Assembly (NCBI GenBank): GCA_902603215.1
Contig: CACKTW010000004.1
Location: 1 to 36,428 of the forward strand
DNA: 36,428 bases
Origin: an uncultured Pelagibacteraceae bacterium
Lineage (GTDB): Bacteria; Pseudomonadota; Alphaproteobacteria; Pelagibacterales; Pelagibacteraceae
Reading direction: 5' to 3'
The position numbers and the translations under genes are program-made. Below are positions 2,180-10,813 of the stretch, in pieces. The notes below the pieces were generated by a model. That model was given only the letters and a program-made list of their open reading frames with translations. It was not told the origin of the DNA and did no database searches. The stretch's first letter is position 1. Every line of letters starts with the position of its first letter.

Positions 2180-2413
2180 TTAGTCTCTTATAGCGTAAGT
2201 AATAACGCTTGTTTCAGTTACATCGGTACCAAGTTTTTTTCATTTTCTGTTTAACATAATACTCATTGTGTTTTTAATAATTAACCAAATCACAAATGAA
2301 ATAATAAAAACAAATTCTACTTCAGATGAAACTGTAGTTTCTACAAAACTAGAGTTTGTAAAGCTTAGAAAAACAAGAACACTAAGTAATATAATTTTAA
2401 AATTTTTAATCAT
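2180..2413 (-). pseudogene. Small membrane-protein ORF interrupted by an in-frame TGA
   Basis: This ORF is not in the ORF track. From ATG 2413 the minus strand encodes 57 residues (MIKNFKIILLSVLVFLSF..., a signal-like segment plus a second hydrophobic helix EFVFIISFVIWLII), then TGA at 2242-2240. The same frame continues for 19 residues, KKLGTDVTETSVITYAIRD, and ends at TAA 2182-2180. The tail looks like genuine protein. Restoring TGG (Trp) at the stop would give one 77-aa protein. A point-mutated gene, a sequencing or assembly error, or two separate short products are all possible. It lies in the 376-base gap between the glycosyltransferase-like gene and HU; apart from the HU terminator nothing else was seen there. 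Confidence 0.4.
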
Positions 2414-2488
2414 TAAACATCTCTTATAGGGAGATTAAAAAAATTAAACCAATGCTATAATTGAAATATAGTTATGTTTATGATGTAA

Positions 2489-2530
2489 TAAAAAAAACAG
2501 CCTTTAAAATTATCTTTTTTTAAAGGCTGT
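2489..2530 (-). terminator. Rho-independent terminator of the HU gene
   Basis: A perfect 13-bp stem, ACAGCCTTTAAAA (2497-2509) against TTTTAAAGGCTGT (2518-2530), with an 8-base loop. Read on the minus strand, the hairpin is followed directly by a run of seven T and then ATTA. It begins 14 bases after the HU stop codon, so it ends the HU transcript and insulates the downstream small ORF. Confidence 0.88.
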
Positions 2531-2543
2531 CCTAAATAGAATC

Positions 2544-2819
2544 TTATCTATTAAACATTTCTTTCAATGCTTTTGCAGGTAAGAATTTAACTTTTTGAGA
2601 GGCAGCAATTTGAATTTGCTCACCAGTTCTTGGGTTTCTACCCACTCTAGCTTTTCTTTTTGCTACTTTATAAGTACCAAAACCAGCAATTTTGACCTGT
2701 TCATCGCTTTTTAGGCAACTCAAAATAATATCAAGAATACCATCAAAAGTTCTCTCGGCATCAGCTTTGCTTTGATTCATGGTAGTAGCTATTTTATTAA
2801 TTAACTGTTTTTTGTTCAT
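2544..2819 (-). CDS. hup: DNA-binding protein HU
   Basis: A 91-aa HU/IHF-family protein of normal length. It has the N-terminal MNKKQLINKIA helix, the KIAGFGTYKV core and the DNA-contacting arm GRNPRTGE, followed by the conserved FLPAKALKE C-terminal helix. HU homodimers bend and compact DNA with little sequence preference. GRNPRTGE with an alanine-rich C-terminal helix favours HU over IHF-alpha/beta. The gene is monocistronic: 150 bases separate it from the upstream rseP-like stop, and a strong terminator follows. A low-complexity AT-rich leader (2820-2969) presumably holds its promoter, but no confident -35/-10 pair was picked. Confidence 0.95.
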   Translation of the reverse strand: MNKKQLINKIATTMNQSKADAERTFDGILDIILSCLKSDEQVKIAGFGTYKVAKRKARVGRNPRTGEQIQIAASQKVKFLPAKALKEMFNR

Positions 2820-2969
2820 TTTAGCCCCATTTTGTTGATAAATTCACTCTTGCCATAAAAACCCATAAAATCAACGTTTTTTTTAGTATATTTTGCAAAA
2901 ATACACACAACATATGGCTATATTAAAAAAGTACTGATTTTATTGACTTTTTTTTAGTTTTTAAAAAAA

Positions 2970-4088
2970 TTAACTAAACAAACCCCAGTCCTTTAGATCG
3001 TTATAAGTTACAAAAAACATTAGTGAAACGAGAAAAAATAAACCGATTCGGAAAAATCCTTCCTGAGTTTTTTGCTTTAAAGGGCGTCCTAGAAGCTTCT
3101 CAAAAAAATAAAACATTAAGTGACCACCATCAAGCATTGGTATAGGAAATAAATTAATCAAACCTAAGCTAACAGAAATGTAAGCCATCATACCTAAAAA
3201 GGGGATAAAACCATATTCAGCAACTTGGCCTGTTATTTTTGCTATTCTAATGGGTCCACCTAATTGTGATGAGTCCCCTTTTCCTTTAATAATACTCCAT
3301 AAATATTCAAGGGAATAACTACTAACAAACCATACCTCTTTTAATGAATGAATTGCTGCTTCTACAAGTCCAAGTTTAACACGATTAAATTCATTGTTTA
3401 GTGGAGCAAGAATAACTCCTATTACTTTTTTATTCATTTTATTTCCTAAATTATCTTTAGATTCAATTAACTTAGGTTTTATTTTAAATAAAATTTCTTG
3501 ATTATTTCTTGAAATTTTTAAGCTGATTGTTTCCTCTGAAGACATTGAGATAAAAGAAGAAACTTGTGATATGCTGTTTATTTCTCTTTCATCAATTGAA
3601 ATTATTCTATCATTCTTTTTTAATCCAGCAACATAAGCAGGGCTATCCTTTTGAACATCAGCTATGATTGCGGGTGTAAAATCTTTTCCTGAAAACATGT
3701 AAATAAATAAAAAAATAAAAAAAGCTAATATAAAATTTGCTATTGGTCCTGCTGCAACGATCAAAGATCTTTGATACAAAGGTTTTAACACAAAAAGTTT
3801 TTCTTGATCTTTTTTGCTGTATTTAGACAAAACTTCTTTTTGCTCTGATTCACTAAAAACATTTCTATCACCAAAAAATTTTACATATCCTCCCAAAGGA
3901 ATCCAGCATATCTTCCATCTAGTTCCTGACTTATCATTCCATCCAAAAATTTCCTTTCCAAAGCCTATTGAAAAATCTGTTACACCAACTCCATACCTTT
4001 TTGCAAAATAATAATGCCCATACTCATGGATAAAAACAACAACTGTAATTAAAATCAAAAATGGAATTATAAAATTCATTAGTTCCAA
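2970..4088 (-). CDS. rseP: RseP-type site-2 (M50) intramembrane zinc metalloprotease
   Basis: A 372-aa polytopic protein. The zinc motif HEYGH (H21, E22, H25) lies in the first transmembrane helix. There is one PDZ domain (roughly residues 120-200, including SPAYVAGLKKNDRI), and the third-ligand motif MLDGGH lies near the C-terminus between membrane helices. Family members cleave transmembrane segments of anti-sigma factors or leftover signal peptides. E. coli RseP has about 450 residues and two PDZ domains; this one is shorter with one, as in many alphaproteobacteria. It is not in the usual dxr-rseP-bamA context. Its start overlaps the rhomboid stop region by 10 bases, so the two intramembrane proteases are translationally coupled. 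It may be a paralogue of a housekeeping copy elsewhere. Confidence 0.9.
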   Translation of the reverse strand: MELMNFIIPFLILITVVVFIHEYGHYYFAKRYGVGVTDFSIGFGKEIFGWNDKSGTRWKICWIPLGGYVKFFGDRNVFSESEQKEVLSKYSKKDQEKLFVLKPLYQRSLIVAAGPIANFILAFFIFLFIYMFSGKDFTPAIIADVQKDSPAYVAGLKKNDRIISIDEREINSISQVSSFISMSSEETISLKISRNNQEILFKIKPKLIESKDNLGNKMNKKVIGVILAPLNNEFNRVKLGLVEAAIHSLKEVWFVSSYSLEYLWSIIKGKGDSSQLGGPIRIAKITGQVAEYGFIPFLGMMAYISVSLGLINLFPIPMLDGGHLMFYFFEKLLGRPLKQKTQEGFFRIGLFFLVSLMFFVTYNDLKDWGLFS

Positions 4089-4786
4089 GGTCCTTTGCTA
4101 ATTTTTTTTTTAATTTTCTTTTTTTTTTTATTAAAAAATAATATCAATATAACACCAGAAATAAAACCACCTATATGCGCTGCATACGCTACGCCTCCTC
4201 CTTGACTTCCTGAGAGATTTGAATTTATAAATTGTAAAATAAACCAAAAACCTAAAACATAAATGGCTCTGATTTTTAAAAGTTGACTAAAAAAACCAAA
4301 AGGAATTAAAACAAGAACTCTTGCTTTTGGATAGTTAACTAAATAGGCGCCTAAAATCCCCCCTATTGCTCCACTTGCTCCAACCATTGGAATTTGTGAT
4401 TGTGTGTCCATAAAAACCTGAGACATTGCGGCTCCCACACCAGATAAAAAATAAAAAATGATAAATTTTGTTGGACCTAAATCATCTTCAATATTGTCTG
4501 CAAAAATCCACATATACAACATGTTTCCAATTAAATGCATAAAACCACCATGCATAAACATTGAAGAAAATATAGTCAGATAAGCTGGTATAATGTAAAT
4601 ATCATTTGGTAACTGACTATATCCTAGCAAAACTGAAGGTATAAGACCGTAAGAATAAAATAATTCTCCTGTTCGATATGAACTTGATCCTAGCTCAAAT
4701 AAAAATATTAAAACACAACAAGCTATTAAAAAATAAGTTACAACTGGCTTCCCTGATGTAGGGTTATCATCTTTTAATGGAATCAT
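4079..4786 (-). CDS. Rhomboid-family intramembrane serine protease
   Basis: A 235-aa rhomboid with six predicted helices. The family opening MIPLKDDNPT supports the start. It also has HGGFMHLIGNM (about 79-89), the catalytic GASGAIGG with Ser139, and the partner His204 in AAHIGGFISG. A very lysine-rich tail (KKKKKIKKKISK) lies at the cytoplasmic end. Rhomboids cut single-pass membrane proteins near the membrane surface. Its first 20 bases lie inside the 3' end of the upstream symporter gene and its end overlaps rseP, so the three genes form one coupled run downstream of a TPP riboswitch. The substrate is unknown. Confidence 0.93.
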   Translation of the reverse strand: MIPLKDDNPTSGKPVVTYFLIACCVLIFLFELGSSSYRTGELFYSYGLIPSVLLGYSQLPNDIYIIPAYLTIFSSMFMHGGFMHLIGNMLYMWIFADNIEDDLGPTKFIIFYFLSGVGAAMSQVFMDTQSQIPMVGASGAIGGILGAYLVNYPKARVLVLIPFGFFSQLLKIRAIYVLGFWFILQFINSNLSGSQGGGVAYAAHIGGFISGVILILFFNKKKKKIKKKISKGPWN

Positions 4787-6221
4787 AACTCATTATAACA
4801 ATTACTGGTACAAGTGTGGCTAATAAAAATGAACAAAATAACAATGAACTAGTAATTATTTTAGGAAAAAAATCATATGAGAACAATAATCCCACCAAAA
4901 TACTCTTTGAAAAGTCAGGTGAAGGAAATAAAAGTAAACCAAAAAACAGGCCTAGAAGTATAGATAATATTGCAATTTTTGAATTAATTCTTGTGGAATA
5001 AAAGCTATAAAAAACTGTAAAAACCGCGCTACAACAAAGCAAGTCTGCTAATAGAAATAGATAAAGTATACTAAATCCTTCTGAAGCAATAAAAAAAGCA
5101 ATAGCACACAAAAAAACCATCAAATATTTTGATAATTTTAGATAATCAATTTTAAATTGTTTTTTGAACAAGTTTTTTCCATTAACAATAAAAATACTAG
5201 AAATTGCATTAACTAAAGTATCCAAAGTACTTATTGTAAGTGAAAGAGCAAAAACAATAATAATTACTGATACAATTTTTGAATTATCTTTTAATAAAAT
5301 TGAAAAAAAAGCAAGATCTGGATTTACATTAAAATTTTGAGATACAGCTATTAAGCCGCTAAACCCCATAAAAAAAACAATTGGTATTATAATAATAAAA
5401 GAAATTAATAAGCTTTTTTTTAAAACTTTTTCATTTTTAGCTGAAAAAACTCTCTGCCAATTTCCTTGATGAAAAAGATTGGTTGCTGCCACGGCAATAA
5501 AAAAAGTAATTCCCGCAGTATAGTTTGGAATATATTTGGCATTAATTAGATGGGGAGCATTTTTTTTAATTATATCAAAAGAAAAATTATTATCTGTAAA
5601 TAAAAAAATATAACTTATAGAAATCAAAAATAACAAAATAACAATAAAAAATTGTATATTATCAGTAAAAATTGAAACTTTTAATCCGCCGTACAAAGTA
5701 TACGCTAGAGTTGTGACAATTACTATTGATGATGTAATCCAAAGTGGGGTGTTGGAAACATATTTTACCAATATTGATATTGCTGTTACTTCAGCACATA
5801 AAAAAATAAACATGTAAAATACAGTTAGAAATGTAATGAGCTTGAATAAACTCATTCCAAATTTAATTCTAATAAATTCGGTTAAAGTTATTCCTTTACT
5901 AAAAATTTTTCTTAATTTTGTACCCAAATATATTAGAGCCAACATTGGAAAAGCAGTTCCCAAAGAATATCCTATAACAGAACCTATTCCTCCCCAAGTC
6001 GCTGCCGAAGCTGGTCCAAATAGTATCCATGCACCTAAAGCAGAAACAACCAAGCTTGTGGTTAACGATATAACATCTACATTTCTATTCGCAGTTAAAT
6101 AATTATTAATTCCTCTATATTTTTTTGAGTAATTTATTCCTATAAAAGCAAATATTGTGCTTACTAATAAAACTAAAAATAACGACCAATCTTGATTTAA
6201 AAAAAATTCTTGACTATTCAT
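4767..6221 (-). CDS. thiV: Sodium:solute symporter, ThiV-like; probable HMP/thiamin-precursor importer
   Basis: A 484-aa SSS-family protein with about 12-13 hydrophobic helices. The N-terminal pattern YLTANRNVDVISLTTSLVVSALGAW followed by a GGIGSVIGYSLG loop (motifs shortened) is typical of the family. The strongest functional clue is the TPP riboswitch that directly abuts its start codon. In SAR11, an SSS transporter named ThiV behind a TPP riboswitch has been proposed to import the thiamin pyrimidine precursor HMP, which these cells require. Substrate assignment is therefore inference from regulation plus published SAR11 work; transport is presumably sodium-driven at the inner membrane. SD sequence GGGAG lies 4 bases before ATG. 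The 3' end overlaps the rhomboid start. Confidence 0.82.
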   Translation of the reverse strand: MNSQEFFLNQDWSLFLVLLVSTIFAFIGINYSKKYRGINNYLTANRNVDVISLTTSLVVSALGAWILFGPASAATWGGIGSVIGYSLGTAFPMLALIYLGTKLRKIFSKGITLTEFIRIKFGMSLFKLITFLTVFYMFIFLCAEVTAISILVKYVSNTPLWITSSIVIVTTLAYTLYGGLKVSIFTDNIQFFIVILLFLISISYIFLFTDNNFSFDIIKKNAPHLINAKYIPNYTAGITFFIAVAATNLFHQGNWQRVFSAKNEKVLKKSLLISFIIIIPIVFFMGFSGLIAVSQNFNVNPDLAFFSILLKDNSKIVSVIIIVFALSLTISTLDTLVNAISSIFIVNGKNLFKKQFKIDYLKLSKYLMVFLCAIAFFIASEGFSILYLFLLADLLCCSAVFTVFYSFYSTRINSKIAILSILLGLFFGLLLFPSPDFSKSILVGLLFSYDFFPKIITSSLLFCSFLLATLVPVIVIMSYDSIKR

Positions 6222-6295
6222 TAATCTCCCTCTCTGAATTACCGGACAGGTTATTAGGGTATAATCTCAGTCTTCCGACACCCCTTCGAATAATA
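6222..6295 (-). promoter_or_regulatory. TPP (THI-box) riboswitch
   Basis: Read on the minus strand the region holds the THI-box core in order: GAAGGGGTGTC, CTGAGATTATACCC, AACCTGTCCGGTAAT and AGGGAGA. These match the P2/J3-2 CUGAGA and the ACCUG-CCGG pyrophosphate-sensor segments of TPP riboswitches. The terminal AGGGAGA doubles as the Shine-Dalgarno of the symporter gene, three bases before its ATG. Ligand binding would therefore most simply block ribosome access rather than terminate transcription; no terminator hairpin with a T run fits between core and start. The fbpC stop lies only 18 bases upstream, so read-through transcripts from the iron operon would also pass through it. Confidence 0.92.
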
Positions 6296-6313
6296 ATTTA
6301 TATTAAAATTTAT

Positions 6314-7372
6314 TTAAAAGCAAACTATGTGGTCAATAGTAATTGGTCTTCTAATACCAAATTTTTCATCAACTTCATGCTGATGAATATGATGCGAATG
6401 AACAAAAACAGGTATAAGTCTATCGCTTGGAGTTTTAAGAGTATAAATGAAATTCGTTCCTCTAAATTTTCTATCTACGACTTCAAGTTTTAAATTGCTT
6501 TTATCATCATGTTCTAAATCTTCTGGTTGCAATAAAAGTTTTACTTCGGAGCCTTTTGGGTATCGTTTTAAAAAGTTTCCTTTTATAATTCCTAAGTCTT
6601 CACTTTCTAAACTATCTTCATCTATAACCTTGGCTGGTATCAATATTCCTCTATTCAAAAAATTCACAACTTCAACAGAATTTGGGAAATGATAAACATT
6701 ATAAGGATCATCATATTGTTTTAATTGTCCATCTAAAATAATTCCACATTTGCTACCCAAATAGAATGCTTCATATGAATCGTGAGTAACAATAATTGTG
6801 GTAATTTTCAAATCGGTCAAAATTTTCTTAAGTTTCACTTGAATTTCTTCTTTAAAACTTTGGTCAACGTTAGATAAAGGTTCGTCTAATAACAACAGAT
6901 CTGGTTTCGATATTAATGATCTTGCTAAAGATGCTCTTTGAGCCTCTCCAGAACTAATTTCATGAGGAAACTTATTTTTTACATGCTCTAAATTCAAAAG
7001 TTTAATTAAATCATCAATTTTCAAGTCTTTTTTTTTCTTTTTATTTCTTTCAGCTCCAAATTCTATATTTTGAATAACGTTATAATGTGGAAATAAAGAG
7101 TTATCTTGAAATGACAAAGCAATATTTCTTTTTTCCGGCTCAACATGAATCTCGTTTGAAGAAATAATTTTATTCTTTAATAAAATTTTACCAGAATGGA
7201 TTTTTTCCAATCCAGCTATAGATCTTAAAATTGTAGTTTTTCCAATTCCAGAAGGGCCCAATAAACATATTATTTCACCTTCCTTTTCAATATTAAGGGT
7301 AACATTATTTACTTTATTTTTTTTGCTTGCTGCAAATGTTACGTTTTTTATTTCTAAAAAATTTTTAATCAT
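6314..7372 (-). CDS. fbpC: Iron(III) ABC transporter, ATP-binding protein (FbpC-like)
   Basis: A 352-aa ABC ATPase. Walker A is GPSGIGKTT (about 38-46). The signature is SSGEAQRASLA, a departure from the usual LSGGQQQR. Walker B is LLLLDEPLSNVD, followed by the switch histidine in TIIVTHD. A C-terminal extension of about 120 residues resembles the TOBE-type regulatory domain of FbpC/PotA ATPases. It energises ferric iron import with the adjacent FbpB-type permease (7 bases upstream) and the binding protein further upstream. It is the last gene of the Fur-box-controlled cluster. Assignment to iron rather than another anion or polyamine rests on the permease and binding-protein types and the Fur sites. 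Confidence 0.9.
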   Translation of the reverse strand: MIKNFLEIKNVTFAASKKNKVNNVTLNIEKEGEIICLLGPSGIGKTTILRSIAGLEKIHSGKILLKNKIISSNEIHVEPEKRNIALSFQDNSLFPHYNVIQNIEFGAERNKKKKKDLKIDDLIKLLNLEHVKNKFPHEISSGEAQRASLARSLISKPDLLLLDEPLSNVDQSFKEEIQVKLKKILTDLKITTIIVTHDSYEAFYLGSKCGIILDGQLKQYDDPYNVYHFPNSVEVVNFLNRGILIPAKVIDEDSLESEDLGIIKGNFLKRYPKGSEVKLLLQPEDLEHDDKSNLKLEVVDRKFRGTNFIYTLKTPSDRLIPVFVHSHHIHQHEVDEKFGIRRPITIDHIVCF

Positions 7373-7379
7373 TTTACCT

Positions 7380-8993
7380 TTATTCTCTAAGAATATATCT
7401 AGATGTAATTAAAATAAAGAAACTTGCAATAATTATTAAAAACAATGATGGAATCGCTGCTGCTTCAAGTAAATCTTGTGAAGCATAAATATAAGCAGTG
7501 GTTGCAAAAGTTTCAAAATTAAACGGTCTCATGATAAGAGTTATTGGTAATTCTTTGATGATTTCAATAGCAACCAAAACTCCTATCAATAAAATTGAAT
7601 TTCTTAGGTATGGGATATGAATATTTGTAAAAGTTTTGAGCTTAGAATAACCAAGTAAATAGGCGCTTTCATCTATAGAATAATTTATTTTAATATATCC
7701 TGACTTAATACCATTGCATGCAAGAGAATAAAAACGAACAAAATAAACAACAACTAATCCAAAAACAGATCCAATAAAAATGGACTTAATTGTTTCAAGA
7801 TTTAAAAAACTTATTAAATTATTATCAAACCAAGAAATAAAGCTTATAAATGCCACTGCTAATATAACACCAGGTATTGCATAACCGGAAATTGAAAATG
7901 TTGTTAGTATCTCGAGGAATTTACTTCTTGAAACTCTGTTTCCATAATTAGATATAAAAGCAAAAACTATCAAGACGCAACTTGATAAAAACATTAATAA
8001 TAAAGTATTAAAAATTAACTGAACAATATTTAGATCATTTATATGTTTGGGAAATATTATTGTCCAATACAACATTTGTAAAACTGGAAATAAAAAACTA
8101 ACAAAGAAAACAAAAAAACAAACAAAAAATGCAAAAAATGATTTGTAACCACTTAAAGAAATAATTGACTTAGATTTAAATCCACCTTTAGATAACGAAT
8201 GATACCTTGCTCTTTTTCTAGATAAGTTTTCTAATATGAACAGTCCAAAAATGAATATCAAAAGATAAAAAGATAACTGGTTAGCTAATGATAGATCGTC
8301 GAATGAAACCCAAGCATTGTATATACCTGTTGTCAGTGTTGAAACGCCAAAAAATGAAACAGCTCCAAAATCTGAAAGTGTTTCCATTGCAACTAAAGAG
8401 AGTCCTGCAACAATTGCTGGTCTTGCTGATGGCAAAATAATTTTATAAAATGATTTTTTCTTTGAAAAACCAAGGTTTTTTCCAAGCTCAATTAAATTTT
8501 CAGATTGATAATGAAAAGAAGCTCTTGTTAATACATATACATATCCAAACAAGGAAAATGAAATTGAAATTATTGCTCCTAACATTTCATCAAATTTAGG
8601 AATTTTACTGTTATAATCCCCTTCTCCAAAAATTTTTGTTAATATTGAGTAAAATGTACCAAAATTTTCAAAAAAAGCTGTTAAGGAATATGCATATATA
8701 TAAGCCGGAACAGCAAAAGATAAAATTAGTGCCCATTTAAAAAAATTTACCCCTGGAAATTTATAAAATGAAACAATATATGCGCACCCTACTCCGATTA
8801 TAAAAGTAAAAATTAAAACACCAATTAAGAGAAATATTGAATTAAAAATATATTCATAAAGAAAAGTATCTTCAATTATAAAAAAATAATTCGTTGTAGT
8901 TTGAAAAAAACTTGAAAAAACTGTAATTATTGGAATAGCCACAATTACAGATATAAAAAATGAACCTAAATACCAAATATTAAATTTCTGCAT
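7380..8993 (-). CDS. fbpB: Iron(III) ABC transporter permease, fused double domain (FbpB-like)
   Basis: A 537-aa inner-membrane protein made of two homologous permease halves, as in FbpB/SfuB. Each half has an ATPase-contacting EAA-type loop: LIELGKNLGFSKKKSF in the first (about 168) and ESAYLLGYSKLKTF in the second (about 455). About twelve hydrophobic helices are visible, and the length matches the family (500-560 aa). It forms the channel for Fe(III) delivered by the periplasmic binding protein and is driven by FbpC. A 12-bp hairpin lies in the 126-base gap upstream, between the small Cys-rich ORF and this gene, possibly separating high expression of the binding protein from lower expression of the membrane part. 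Confidence 0.92.
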   Translation of the reverse strand: MQKFNIWYLGSFFISVIVAIPIITVFSSFFQTTTNYFFIIEDTFLYEYIFNSIFLLIGVLIFTFIIGVGCAYIVSFYKFPGVNFFKWALILSFAVPAYIYAYSLTAFFENFGTFYSILTKIFGEGDYNSKIPKFDEMLGAIISISFSLFGYVYVLTRASFHYQSENLIELGKNLGFSKKKSFYKIILPSARPAIVAGLSLVAMETLSDFGAVSFFGVSTLTTGIYNAWVSFDDLSLANQLSFYLLIFIFGLFILENLSRKRARYHSLSKGGFKSKSIISLSGYKSFFAFFVCFFVFFVSFLFPVLQMLYWTIIFPKHINDLNIVQLIFNTLLLMFLSSCVLIVFAFISNYGNRVSRSKFLEILTTFSISGYAIPGVILAVAFISFISWFDNNLISFLNLETIKSIFIGSVFGLVVVYFVRFYSLACNGIKSGYIKINYSIDESAYLLGYSKLKTFTNIHIPYLRNSILLIGVLVAIEIIKELPITLIMRPFNFETFATTAYIYASQDLLEAAAIPSLFLIIIASFFILITSRYILRE

Positions 8994-9055
8994 CTTAATT
9001 TCTTTAAAATATTCTTTTTTAGACTAGCACCTAATTAAAATACTTTCAATTGAGT

Positions 9056-9106
9056 AGCGTACCTACAATGTATGACGCATGTTTAGGAGAATCATGTAGG
9101 TACGCT
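9056..9106. other. Strong 12-bp hairpin in the iron-transport operon
   Basis: Perfect inverted repeat AGCGTACCTACA (9056-9067) and TGTAGGTACGCT (9095-9106) separated by 27 bases. It is unusually GC-rich for this genome and lies in the intercistronic gap between the small Cys-rich ORF and fbpB. There is no T run next to it on either strand, so a classic intrinsic terminator is unlikely. An mRNA 3'-end stabiliser or attenuator that lets the binding protein be made in excess over the permease is plausible, as for other binding-protein operons. A protein-binding palindrome is the alternative. Confidence 0.6.
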
Positions 9107-9119
9107 TTAATGTAAAAAA

Positions 9120-9299
9120 CTAATCTTTTATACCAAAGACTTTGTATATGTGTGGAATCTCATCATCCTTGATCTCAGATAGTTTTCTCCCATTTATTTT
9201 TTTGTTGATTTTTTTACACTCTGAACTGCAGGGATTGCAACATTCAGAAGAATTATTGTAATCAACTTCAAATAAACTTTTCTTAAGTTTTGCAATCAT
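9120..9299 (-). CDS. Small Cys-rich protein in the iron-transport operon, function unknown
   Basis: The ORF track starts at a TTG (9305), but ATG at 9299 has a GGAAG ribosome site at good spacing, giving 59 residues. The middle holds four cysteines in ECCNPCSSECKK, followed by a lysine-rich stretch and a C-terminus IPHIYKVFGIKD. No signal peptide or membrane helix is seen, so it is probably cytoplasmic. It begins 6 bases after the stop of the iron-binding protein gene, so it is co-transcribed and presumably under the same Fur-type control. A small metal- or Fe-S-binding helper for iron handling is a reasonable guess, but I recognise no family. Confidence 0.65.
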   Translation of the reverse strand: MIAKLKKSLFEVDYNNSSECCNPCSSECKKINKKINGRKLSEIKDDEIPHIYKVFGIKD

Positions 9300-9305
9300 C
9301 AACAA

Positions 9306-10328
9306 TTACTTCCAGCTAGCTGCTAGCATTACCTCTAGCGCGTCAGCCTGTTTTTTACCATATGATGAAACTTTAGTTTTAAGATCTTGTTTAAATCCTA
9401 AGCCCATTTTGCTAACCAAGTTATGAGGTTTAACATCATCAATCATTGGATATTCAAATGTGTTATTAACAATATGTTCCTGCGCTTCTTTTGTTAATAA
9501 AAACTCAAGTAATTTAATTGCATTACTTTTGTTTGGTGCATATTTTAATACACCTCCGCCACTAATATTCATATGAGTTCCTCTTCCATCTTGATTTGGA
9601 AAGAATGGTTTAACTTTTTTAGCTGCTGCTTGTTGTTCTGCTCCTTTTTTGCCAGACAACATCAAAGCTAAATAATAAGTATTAGCTACTGCAAGATCTG
9701 CTTCTCCTGCTGCAACAGCTAATATTTGTGCTCTATCGTTACCTTTGGAATCTCTTGCCATATTTTTTACTAGTCCTTTTGCCCATTCAGCTGTTTTCTT
9801 TTTTCCGTTATTTTGAATTAAAGAAGCAACAAGTGATTGATTGTAAACATTATTAGACTGTCTAATTACTATTCTGCCTTTCCATTTTGGATCAGCTAAA
9901 TCTTCATAAGTCATGCCTTTAAGATCGTTTGCATTTACTCTTTCTGGAGAATAGTAAATTATTCTTGCTCTTTTAGCTATTCCTGTCCAGTAAGCAGTTC
10001 TAAAGTTTGAAGGAACAGCTTTTTTTATAGCTGCTGAACTCGCACCTCGTTGAAACATCCCTTCTGCTTGAAATGCTCCTAATCTTCCAGCATCTGCTGT
10101 GATATATAAGTCTGCTATACAATCTTTTCCTTCTTCCTTTATTCGTTTTTGTAGAGCTTTATCTTTTCCTGATACTACATTTACTTTAATTCCAGTTTTT
10201 ACTGTAAACTTTTCATAAAGCTGAATATCTGAATCATAGTGTCTAGCACTAAAAATGTTTACCTCATTAGCCAAGCTAACGCTGGTAAAAAAAGTTATTA
10301 AAGCCGTAATAATTCCTATTTTTTTCAT
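9306..10328 (-). CDS. fbpA: Iron(III) ABC transporter periplasmic binding protein (FbpA/FutA/SfuC-like)
   Basis: A 340-aa secreted protein. The signal peptide is MKKIGIITALITFFTSVSLA, probably cut before NEVNIFSARHY, the normal mature start of FutA-type ferric binding proteins. The tyrosine pair in NTYYLALML corresponds to the Fe-coordinating Tyr-Tyr motif of the family, and RHYDSD near the mature N-terminus carries another usual iron-site residue. It captures ferric iron in the periplasm and delivers it to the FbpBC transporter encoded downstream; in SAR11 the equivalent gene is often called sfuC. The SD AAAGGAG lies upstream of ATG. Two Fur-type boxes sit 38-70 bases upstream, so expression should rise under iron limitation. 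Confidence 0.93.
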   Translation of the reverse strand: MKKIGIITALITFFTSVSLANEVNIFSARHYDSDIQLYEKFTVKTGIKVNVVSGKDKALQKRIKEEGKDCIADLYITADAGRLGAFQAEGMFQRGASSAAIKKAVPSNFRTAYWTGIAKRARIIYYSPERVNANDLKGMTYEDLADPKWKGRIVIRQSNNVYNQSLVASLIQNNGKKKTAEWAKGLVKNMARDSKGNDRAQILAVAAGEADLAVANTYYLALMLSGKKGAEQQAAAKKVKPFFPNQDGRGTHMNISGGGVLKYAPNKSNAIKLLEFLLTKEAQEHIVNNTFEYPMIDDVKPHNLVSKMGLGFKQDLKTKVSSYGKKQADALEVMLAASWK

Positions 10329-10365
10329 TTTTGTTTTACTCCTTTTTTTTCTTGTTAAAATTGAA

Positions 10366-10398
10366 AATGATAACTATTATCAATGATAATGATTATCA
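10366..10398 (-). promoter_or_regulatory. Two tandem Fur-type operators upstream of fbpA
   Basis: Two 7-1-7 inverted repeats stand side by side: TGATAACTATTATCA (10368-10382, one mismatch to perfect symmetry) and TGATAATGATTATCA (10384-10398, a perfect TGATAAT-N-ATTATCA). This is the classical Fur recognition form. They lie between the divergent fbpA and bactofilin genes, much nearer fbpA, and overlap the region where its promoter must be. Repression of the iron importer when iron is plentiful is the expected effect. An alphaproteobacterial Mur-type Fur homologue responding to manganese is the alternative. Confidence 0.88.
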
Positions 10399-10489
10399 AT
10401 CGCACATATTGTCGCAATATTCAAGGTTTAATTAAAAAATAATACAATTTTAAAGTTTAAAATCTTTAGTTGTTTAAATAGGATAATGA

Positions 10490-10813
10490 ATGGGAAAAAA
10501 TAAGTCATTTTTAAGAAGAGACACAAGAATAAAAGGTAATCTTATTGAAAAGGAAGTTGTTGTTATTGATGGAGAGATTCAAGGCAACATTACTGCTGAA
10601 GAAGTAGAACTTTTTGAAAATTCAAAAGTTAAAGGAAATATAAAATCTAAGTTATCTGAAATTGGCGGAAACCTTAAAGGAGATATTGATTCCGATAAAG
10701 TTCACATAAGAAAAACAGCCGATATCACTGGATCAATTTCTCAAAAAACAATTTCTGTTGAAGAAGGTGCTAATTTAAAAATTAGAACCGAAACTAAAAA
10801 TAAAAAGCATTAA
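10490..10813 (+). CDS. Bactofilin (polymer-forming cytoskeletal protein)
   Basis: A 107-aa protein with the bactofilin/DUF583 beta-helix pattern. It is a series of short hydrophobic-Gly repeats such as TRIKGNLIEKEVVVIDGEIQG, VKGNI and LKGDI (here only landmarks), flanked by charged, disordered N- and C-termini. Bactofilins polymerise without nucleotide into filaments or sheets under the membrane and take part in cell shape, stalk or peptidoglycan organisation. The length is at the short end of the family. It is transcribed alone, divergent from the iron operon, and its stop overlaps the convergent LysR gene by 4 bases. No peptidoglycan hydrolase partner is adjacent. Confidence 0.88.
   Translation: MGKNKSFLRRDTRIKGNLIEKEVVVIDGEIQGNITAEEVELFENSKVKGNIKSKLSEIGGNLKGDIDSDKVHIRKTADITGSISQKTISVEEGANLKIRTETKNKKH

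Follow-up and report, generated by a model that had tools for sequence, protein, structure and literature searches.

In HTCC1062, a TPP riboswitch lies before SAR11_0811 (Meyer et al., 2009; PMC2704228), and ThiV is the likely HMP importer under TPP riboswitch control in SAR11 groups, being in HTCC7211 only the likely candidate for HMP transport (PMC11452348). Intramembrane proteases of two described families, the rhomboid serine proteases (PF01694), among them GlpG and rhombosortase, and the RseP or site-2 metalloproteases (TIGR00054), provide the second point of comparison for the locus considered here. In many proteobacteria rseP lies beside bamA, and in E. coli it is essential. The third is formed by promoters embedded in the ends of upstream coding sequences and by leaderless bacterial mRNAs.

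The window, a stretch of 36,428 nucleotides, comes from a Pelagibacteraceae (SAR11) genome of 805,379 bases that is about 70% complete, and it contains a TPP aptamer, thiV, a rhomboid gene and rseP in close succession (Table 1). An earlier note on this DNA read the segment from 4079 to 6295 as a single operon, headed by the riboswitch and including both proteases; that range takes in the riboswitch, thiV and the rhomboid gene but leaves out most of rseP, which extends down to 2970. The reading that appears likely is a different one, in which the riboswitch regulates thiV and the proteases are served by their own embedded promoter, TPP affecting them at most in a minor way.

Table 1. Features of the riboswitch, symporter and protease region, listed in the direction of transcription
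Feature	Position	Strand	Remarks
Iron-type ABC importer (binding protein, permease, ATPase)	6314..10328	minus	ends 19 nt before the aptamer
TPP riboswitch aptamer (RF00059), short SAR11 form	6209..6295	minus	Infernal match
AGGGAG, 3′ conserved aptamer segment and thiV Shine-Dalgarno site	6226..6231	minus	4 nt before ATG
thiV, sodium/solute symporter, putative HMP importer	4767..6221	minus	SSF, PF00474, E 5e-13
TGTTATAAT, putative extended -10 element for rhomboid-rseP	4792..4800	minus	last thiV codons, 5 nt before rhomboid ATG
Rhomboid family intramembrane serine protease	4079..4786	minus	PF01694, E 1.3e-32
AAAGGA, Shine-Dalgarno-like codons (KGPW) at rhomboid C-terminus	4091..4096	minus	upstream of rseP
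rseP, site-2 metalloprotease	2970..4088	minus	start TTG 4088 or ATG 4079; TIGR00054, PF02163, E 8e-66
HU-family DNA-binding protein	2544..2819	minus	PF00216; next same-strand gene after rseP, 150-nt gap
Intrinsic terminator-like hairpin 3′ of HU	2494..2533	minus	16-pair stem and T run

The element abutting the thiV start is a known TPP riboswitch of ordinary type, predicted to bind TPP and to control expression. Its match spans the entire RF00059 model (positions 1-105 of 105) with 35.1 bits and an E-value of 1.5e-5 locally and 1.2e-5 genome-wide, a score that falls below the Rfam gathering score of 54.3 bits and is thus missed by a default scan. It is the sole RF00059 match in the window's genome. 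Orthologous aptamers 5′ of thiV in relatives reach 71 bits, and the conserved core (CUGAGA, ACCC, ACCUG, UAAU and GGGA) is complete in the window aptamer and in about 100 relatives. As in Ca. Pelagibacter, the short aptamer directly precedes the symporter gene. In an HTCC1062-like genome (G025), the aptamer at 786,499-786,587 matches in position the HTCC1062 intergenic region at 786,467-786,574 (PMC2704228), and the thiV gene of that genome encodes a protein to which the window protein is 64% identical. The window symporter is thus best regarded as of the ThiV type, an SSF protein under a TPP riboswitch and orthologous to SAR11_0811, with HMP transport as its putative function. Both the assignment and the remark that this pairing is known in SAR11 were correct in the earlier note; riboswitch plus ThiV is already published SAR11 biology (PMC2704228; PMC11452348).

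The 3′ conserved segment of the aptamer coincides with the ribosome-binding site of thiV; of the 89 leaders that were parsed, 86 have 2-6 nt between AGGGA and the thiV ATG. No terminator lies between the aptamer and the ATG, where the space is too short, and the only terminator-like hairpin in the interval 2300-10500 is the one downstream of HU, the chance expectation being 2.2 sites per scan. Because a terminator is missing and AGGGA doubles as the ribosome site, the riboswitch probably acts on thiV translation alone. Both features fit a mechanism in which the aptamer, on binding TPP, would hide its own ribosome-binding site, and little ThiV would be made. For a P1 closing stem over the thiV start codon, neither duplex energies nor pairing in each register, compared with shuffled partners, gave a convincing signal; the partner-shuffle tests of P1 covariation are not significant once the registers tried are allowed for, and the folding z-score of the single window leader (0.01) is uninformative.

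Similar elements occur in other settings among the relatives. In group g13 (G022:C8, G031:C32; L025, L026), the TPP aptamer resides about 700 nt upstream of thiV rather than adjoining it, which suggests an intervening gene. In the g2 genomes without thiV, a TPP riboswitch (G014:C1:27480-27566; G023:C7:16440-16528) precedes an NMT1/THI5-like gene (PF09084; L171 3054-3923 in G014 and L172 3087-3956 in G023) whose product apparently has no signal peptide, a combination that is possibly a different route to HMP.

On the 5′ side, thiV transcription might also originate in the operon of the iron-type ABC importer. This neighbor is not constant, since in relatives it is absent or replaced by FTR1; an FTR1-type iron permease takes its place upstream of the riboswitch in the close relatives L063 (9204-9920), L108 and L119. 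Between the binding-protein and permease genes of the importer is a small conserved open frame of 61 amino acids (9120-9305, minus strand), Cys-rich and with no Pfam match, that is found in several relatives too.

Downstream of thiV, the two intramembrane proteases are, as the earlier note had it, a serine and a metallo enzyme. The rhomboid protein scores 113 bits against the PF01694 cut-off of 22.6 and shares with known rhomboid proteases both the domain and the catalytic motifs, displaying GASG, HLIGN and AHIGG, of which GASG and AHIGG belong to the Ser-His dyad. Neither the GlpG nor the rhombosortase equivalog cut-off is reached, which leaves the protein without an assignable specific substrate. 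RseP is a full-length family match (284 bits for TIGR00054, cut-off 147.6) with HEYGH and LDGGH as its HExxH and LDG motifs, and with PDZ matches. Instead of adjoining bamA, the window rseP resides before HU and behind a slot of variable content. There is one full-length rseP in the window's genome, at its 70% completeness, and one in each relative where the gene is found; a second copy near dxr or bamA, which the earlier note had listed for checking, was found neither in the window's genome, in which bamA is located elsewhere, nor in the relatives. In the sister family, the second of the order (24 genomes, G037-G060), no M50 match of RseP length is present; the M50 matches seen there are weak and mostly lie inside a protein of about 700 amino acids, and that family may lack RseP or have a strongly diverged form of it.

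The genes are tightly packed. thiV and the rhomboid gene overlap by 20 nt, as claimed before; the overlap of 10 given for the rhomboid gene and rseP holds with the TTG start at 4088 but shrinks to 1 nt (TAATG) with the in-frame ATG at 4079. The rseP start differs among relatives, with a stop after the TTG in L192 and only the upstream start kept in L110, L145 and L223. Nearly all rhomboids adjoining rseP end in a KGPW-type C-terminus with AAAGGA or AAAGGT codons, which resemble a Shine-Dalgarno site for rseP, whereas nearly all rhomboids away from rseP end in NPW; one group of the latter lies tightly behind a chorismate-synthase-like gene, its identity read from the sequence. Because these codons mark the rhomboids next to rseP and NPW the others, the coupling of rhomboid and rseP appears to be older than thiV and independent of it.

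Overlaps of this kind, 20-23 nt between thiV and the rhomboid gene and 1-13 nt between the rhomboid gene and rseP, together with the missing intergenic terminator and an order kept in several genera, are what would be expected if riboswitch, thiV, rhomboid and rseP shared one TPP-controlled mRNA, with translational coupling relaying the repression, perhaps as a means of importer quality control. Such an operon is very unlikely, and the gene order elsewhere speaks against it. The comparison took in 61 related genomes and 80 further loci. HU follows rseP in nearly all of the relatives seen, and what varies is the slot in front of this pair, bounded on its other side by adh-lysR(-bactofilin): it may contain a rhomboid without thiV, thiV-rhomboid, only thiV, LysE, other genes, or no gene. 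A LysE-type gene occupies it in g6, g8, g10 and g13 (one g6 genome has lysR instead), lysR directly precedes rseP in g5, and in g2, where thiV is absent, rhomboid-rseP follows a divergent bactofilin gene. The order thiV-rhomboid-rseP, whose conservation across Pelagibacterales the earlier note had proposed to check, is confined to the window's grade (g1, g3, g7, g9, g11, g12 and g14, spanning several genera) and is scattered outside it, an outcome that the note had named as refuting its reading. In the adjacent clade thiV precedes rseP without a rhomboid, sometimes with an opposite-strand gene in between, and in derived lineages the slot contains other genes and thiV lies elsewhere. In the HTCC1062-like genome G025 no rhomboid was found, and two ABC genes and an opposite-strand gene separate thiV from rseP, in contrast to the overlapping genes of the window.

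Thus the proteases and the symporter occur apart in both directions: rhomboid-rseP stands without thiV at 26 distinct outgroup junctions, and thiV is usually without a rhomboid behind it and often without an adjoining rseP, while its pairing with the riboswitch is kept across genera as the neighbors change. Vitamin repression of a single-copy rseP, a gene with an essential E. coli counterpart, would moreover be costly. Gene order in SAR11 is 96% conserved, and where it is rearranged this is mostly at the borders of operons (Wilhelm et al., 2007; PMC2217521); a retained order is therefore weak evidence for function; the variable slot before rhomboid-rseP suggests an operon boundary at that point.

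The slot follows descent. Mapped onto a 63-row RseP tree, its states require 9 changes against 39.7 for shuffled labels, with 3 changes each for rhomboid adjacency and thiV proximity. The simplest history begins with an old, tightly coupled rhomboid-rseP pair, before which the riboswitch-thiV cassette arrived a single time, the rhomboid being lost later toward the best-known Pelagibacter. The cassette would have moved into the variable slot, and loss of the spacer would then have allowed the thiV frame to extend across the rhomboid promoter into the rhomboid start.

Evidence for such an engulfed promoter comes from the last thiV codons, and it argues against the earlier statement that the overlaps leave no promoter room; a separate promoter, the other outcome that the note had named as refuting its reading, is thus suggested by the sequence. 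All 21 distinct overlapping thiV-rhomboid junctions carry the codon pattern ATT-NNT-ATA-(ATN or CTG) just before the rhomboid ATG, and TATAAT stands 5 nt before that ATG in 20 of them (TATACT in the other), mostly with TG at the extended -10 position (TGnTATAAT). From the peptide and the codon usage of each gene, TATAAT would be expected in 3.6 of the 21; the excess has a P of about 7e-16 if the genes are taken as independent and of about 5e-6 with only seven effective lineages, and shuffles yield TATAAT in at most 2 of the junctions. Three adjacent thiV codons here show 100% synonymous identity where 38-46% is expected, the top value of 380 windows along thiV. The rhomboid protein cannot account for these codons, because they lie outside its frame. 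Nor is the motif simply ancestral, as it is found at that position in none of the 26 outgroup rhomboid junctions without thiV; it is likewise absent before all 13 rhomboids located elsewhere.

Conceivably, the conserved TTGTTATAAT could be no promoter but a translation signal, in the form of an unstructured A/U-rich start region, or a constraint on the ThiV C-terminus. There is no clear -35 box, and in these lineages the rhomboid has no Shine-Dalgarno site and needs some start signal. However, the fixed synonymous sites exceed what protein constraint alone could produce, the hexamer is identical to the sigma-70 -10 consensus and so spaced as to set the start on the A of the ATG, and TATAAT persists in two of the three lineages in which the region is a non-coding spacer; a role other than that of a promoter is accordingly quite improbable. 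The element points to an embedded promoter and to a leaderless rhomboid-rseP mRNA that would start on the ATG, much as in known systems of embedded promoters and leaderless messages, although in the window the putative promoter is recognized from synonymous conservation, unlike in those systems.

Wider searches were less specific. A generic consensus promoter scan returned no more sites than shuffled sequence. Exact TATAAT is not enriched near SAR11 start codons genome-wide when gene families are equally weighted, and these counts do not favor leaderless starts as a common SAR11 feature. A peak at -11 in the unweighted genome-wide count was discounted, the rhomboid junctions themselves being among the sequences counted. 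The papers searched contained no map of SAR11 transcription starts.

The preferred reading thus has rhomboid and rseP most likely transcribed from a promoter whose -10 element occupies the final codons of thiV, the mRNA having no leader or almost none. Because no terminator intervenes, thiV transcripts probably run into rhomboid-rseP as well. With the terminator absent and a -10-like element present, it could be that the embedded promoter maintains a constant basal protease level to which read-through from thiV adds a TPP-sensitive share. This dual supply is unlikely: under a translational riboswitch the thiV mRNA, and hence the read-through, may hardly vary with TPP, and the present data contain no TPP effect on the proteases. 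The proteases would instead depend on their own promoter, and any effect of TPP on them would therefore be minor at most, exerted via read-through.

A link from vitamin to protease is thus unlikely. In the literature searched for a connection among TPP riboswitches, rhomboids and RseP, only an E. coli RseP study came up, and it is silent on TPP riboswitches. A scheme in which read-through and overlap-based translational coupling from thiV let TPP status tune both proteases in one SAR11 grade, placing proteolysis in the membrane and the import of thiamin precursors under joint control, is very doubtful; a protease response to TPP, if there were one, would connect vitamin status with membrane proteolysis in a way that is new. 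The locus otherwise urges caution where overlapping genes in streamlined genomes are taken to be co-regulated. It seemingly presents a promoter that the coding sequence upstream has engulfed and that synonymous-site selection has preserved, and it lets the steps be ordered by which a riboswitch cassette took its place before a probably essential protease gene.
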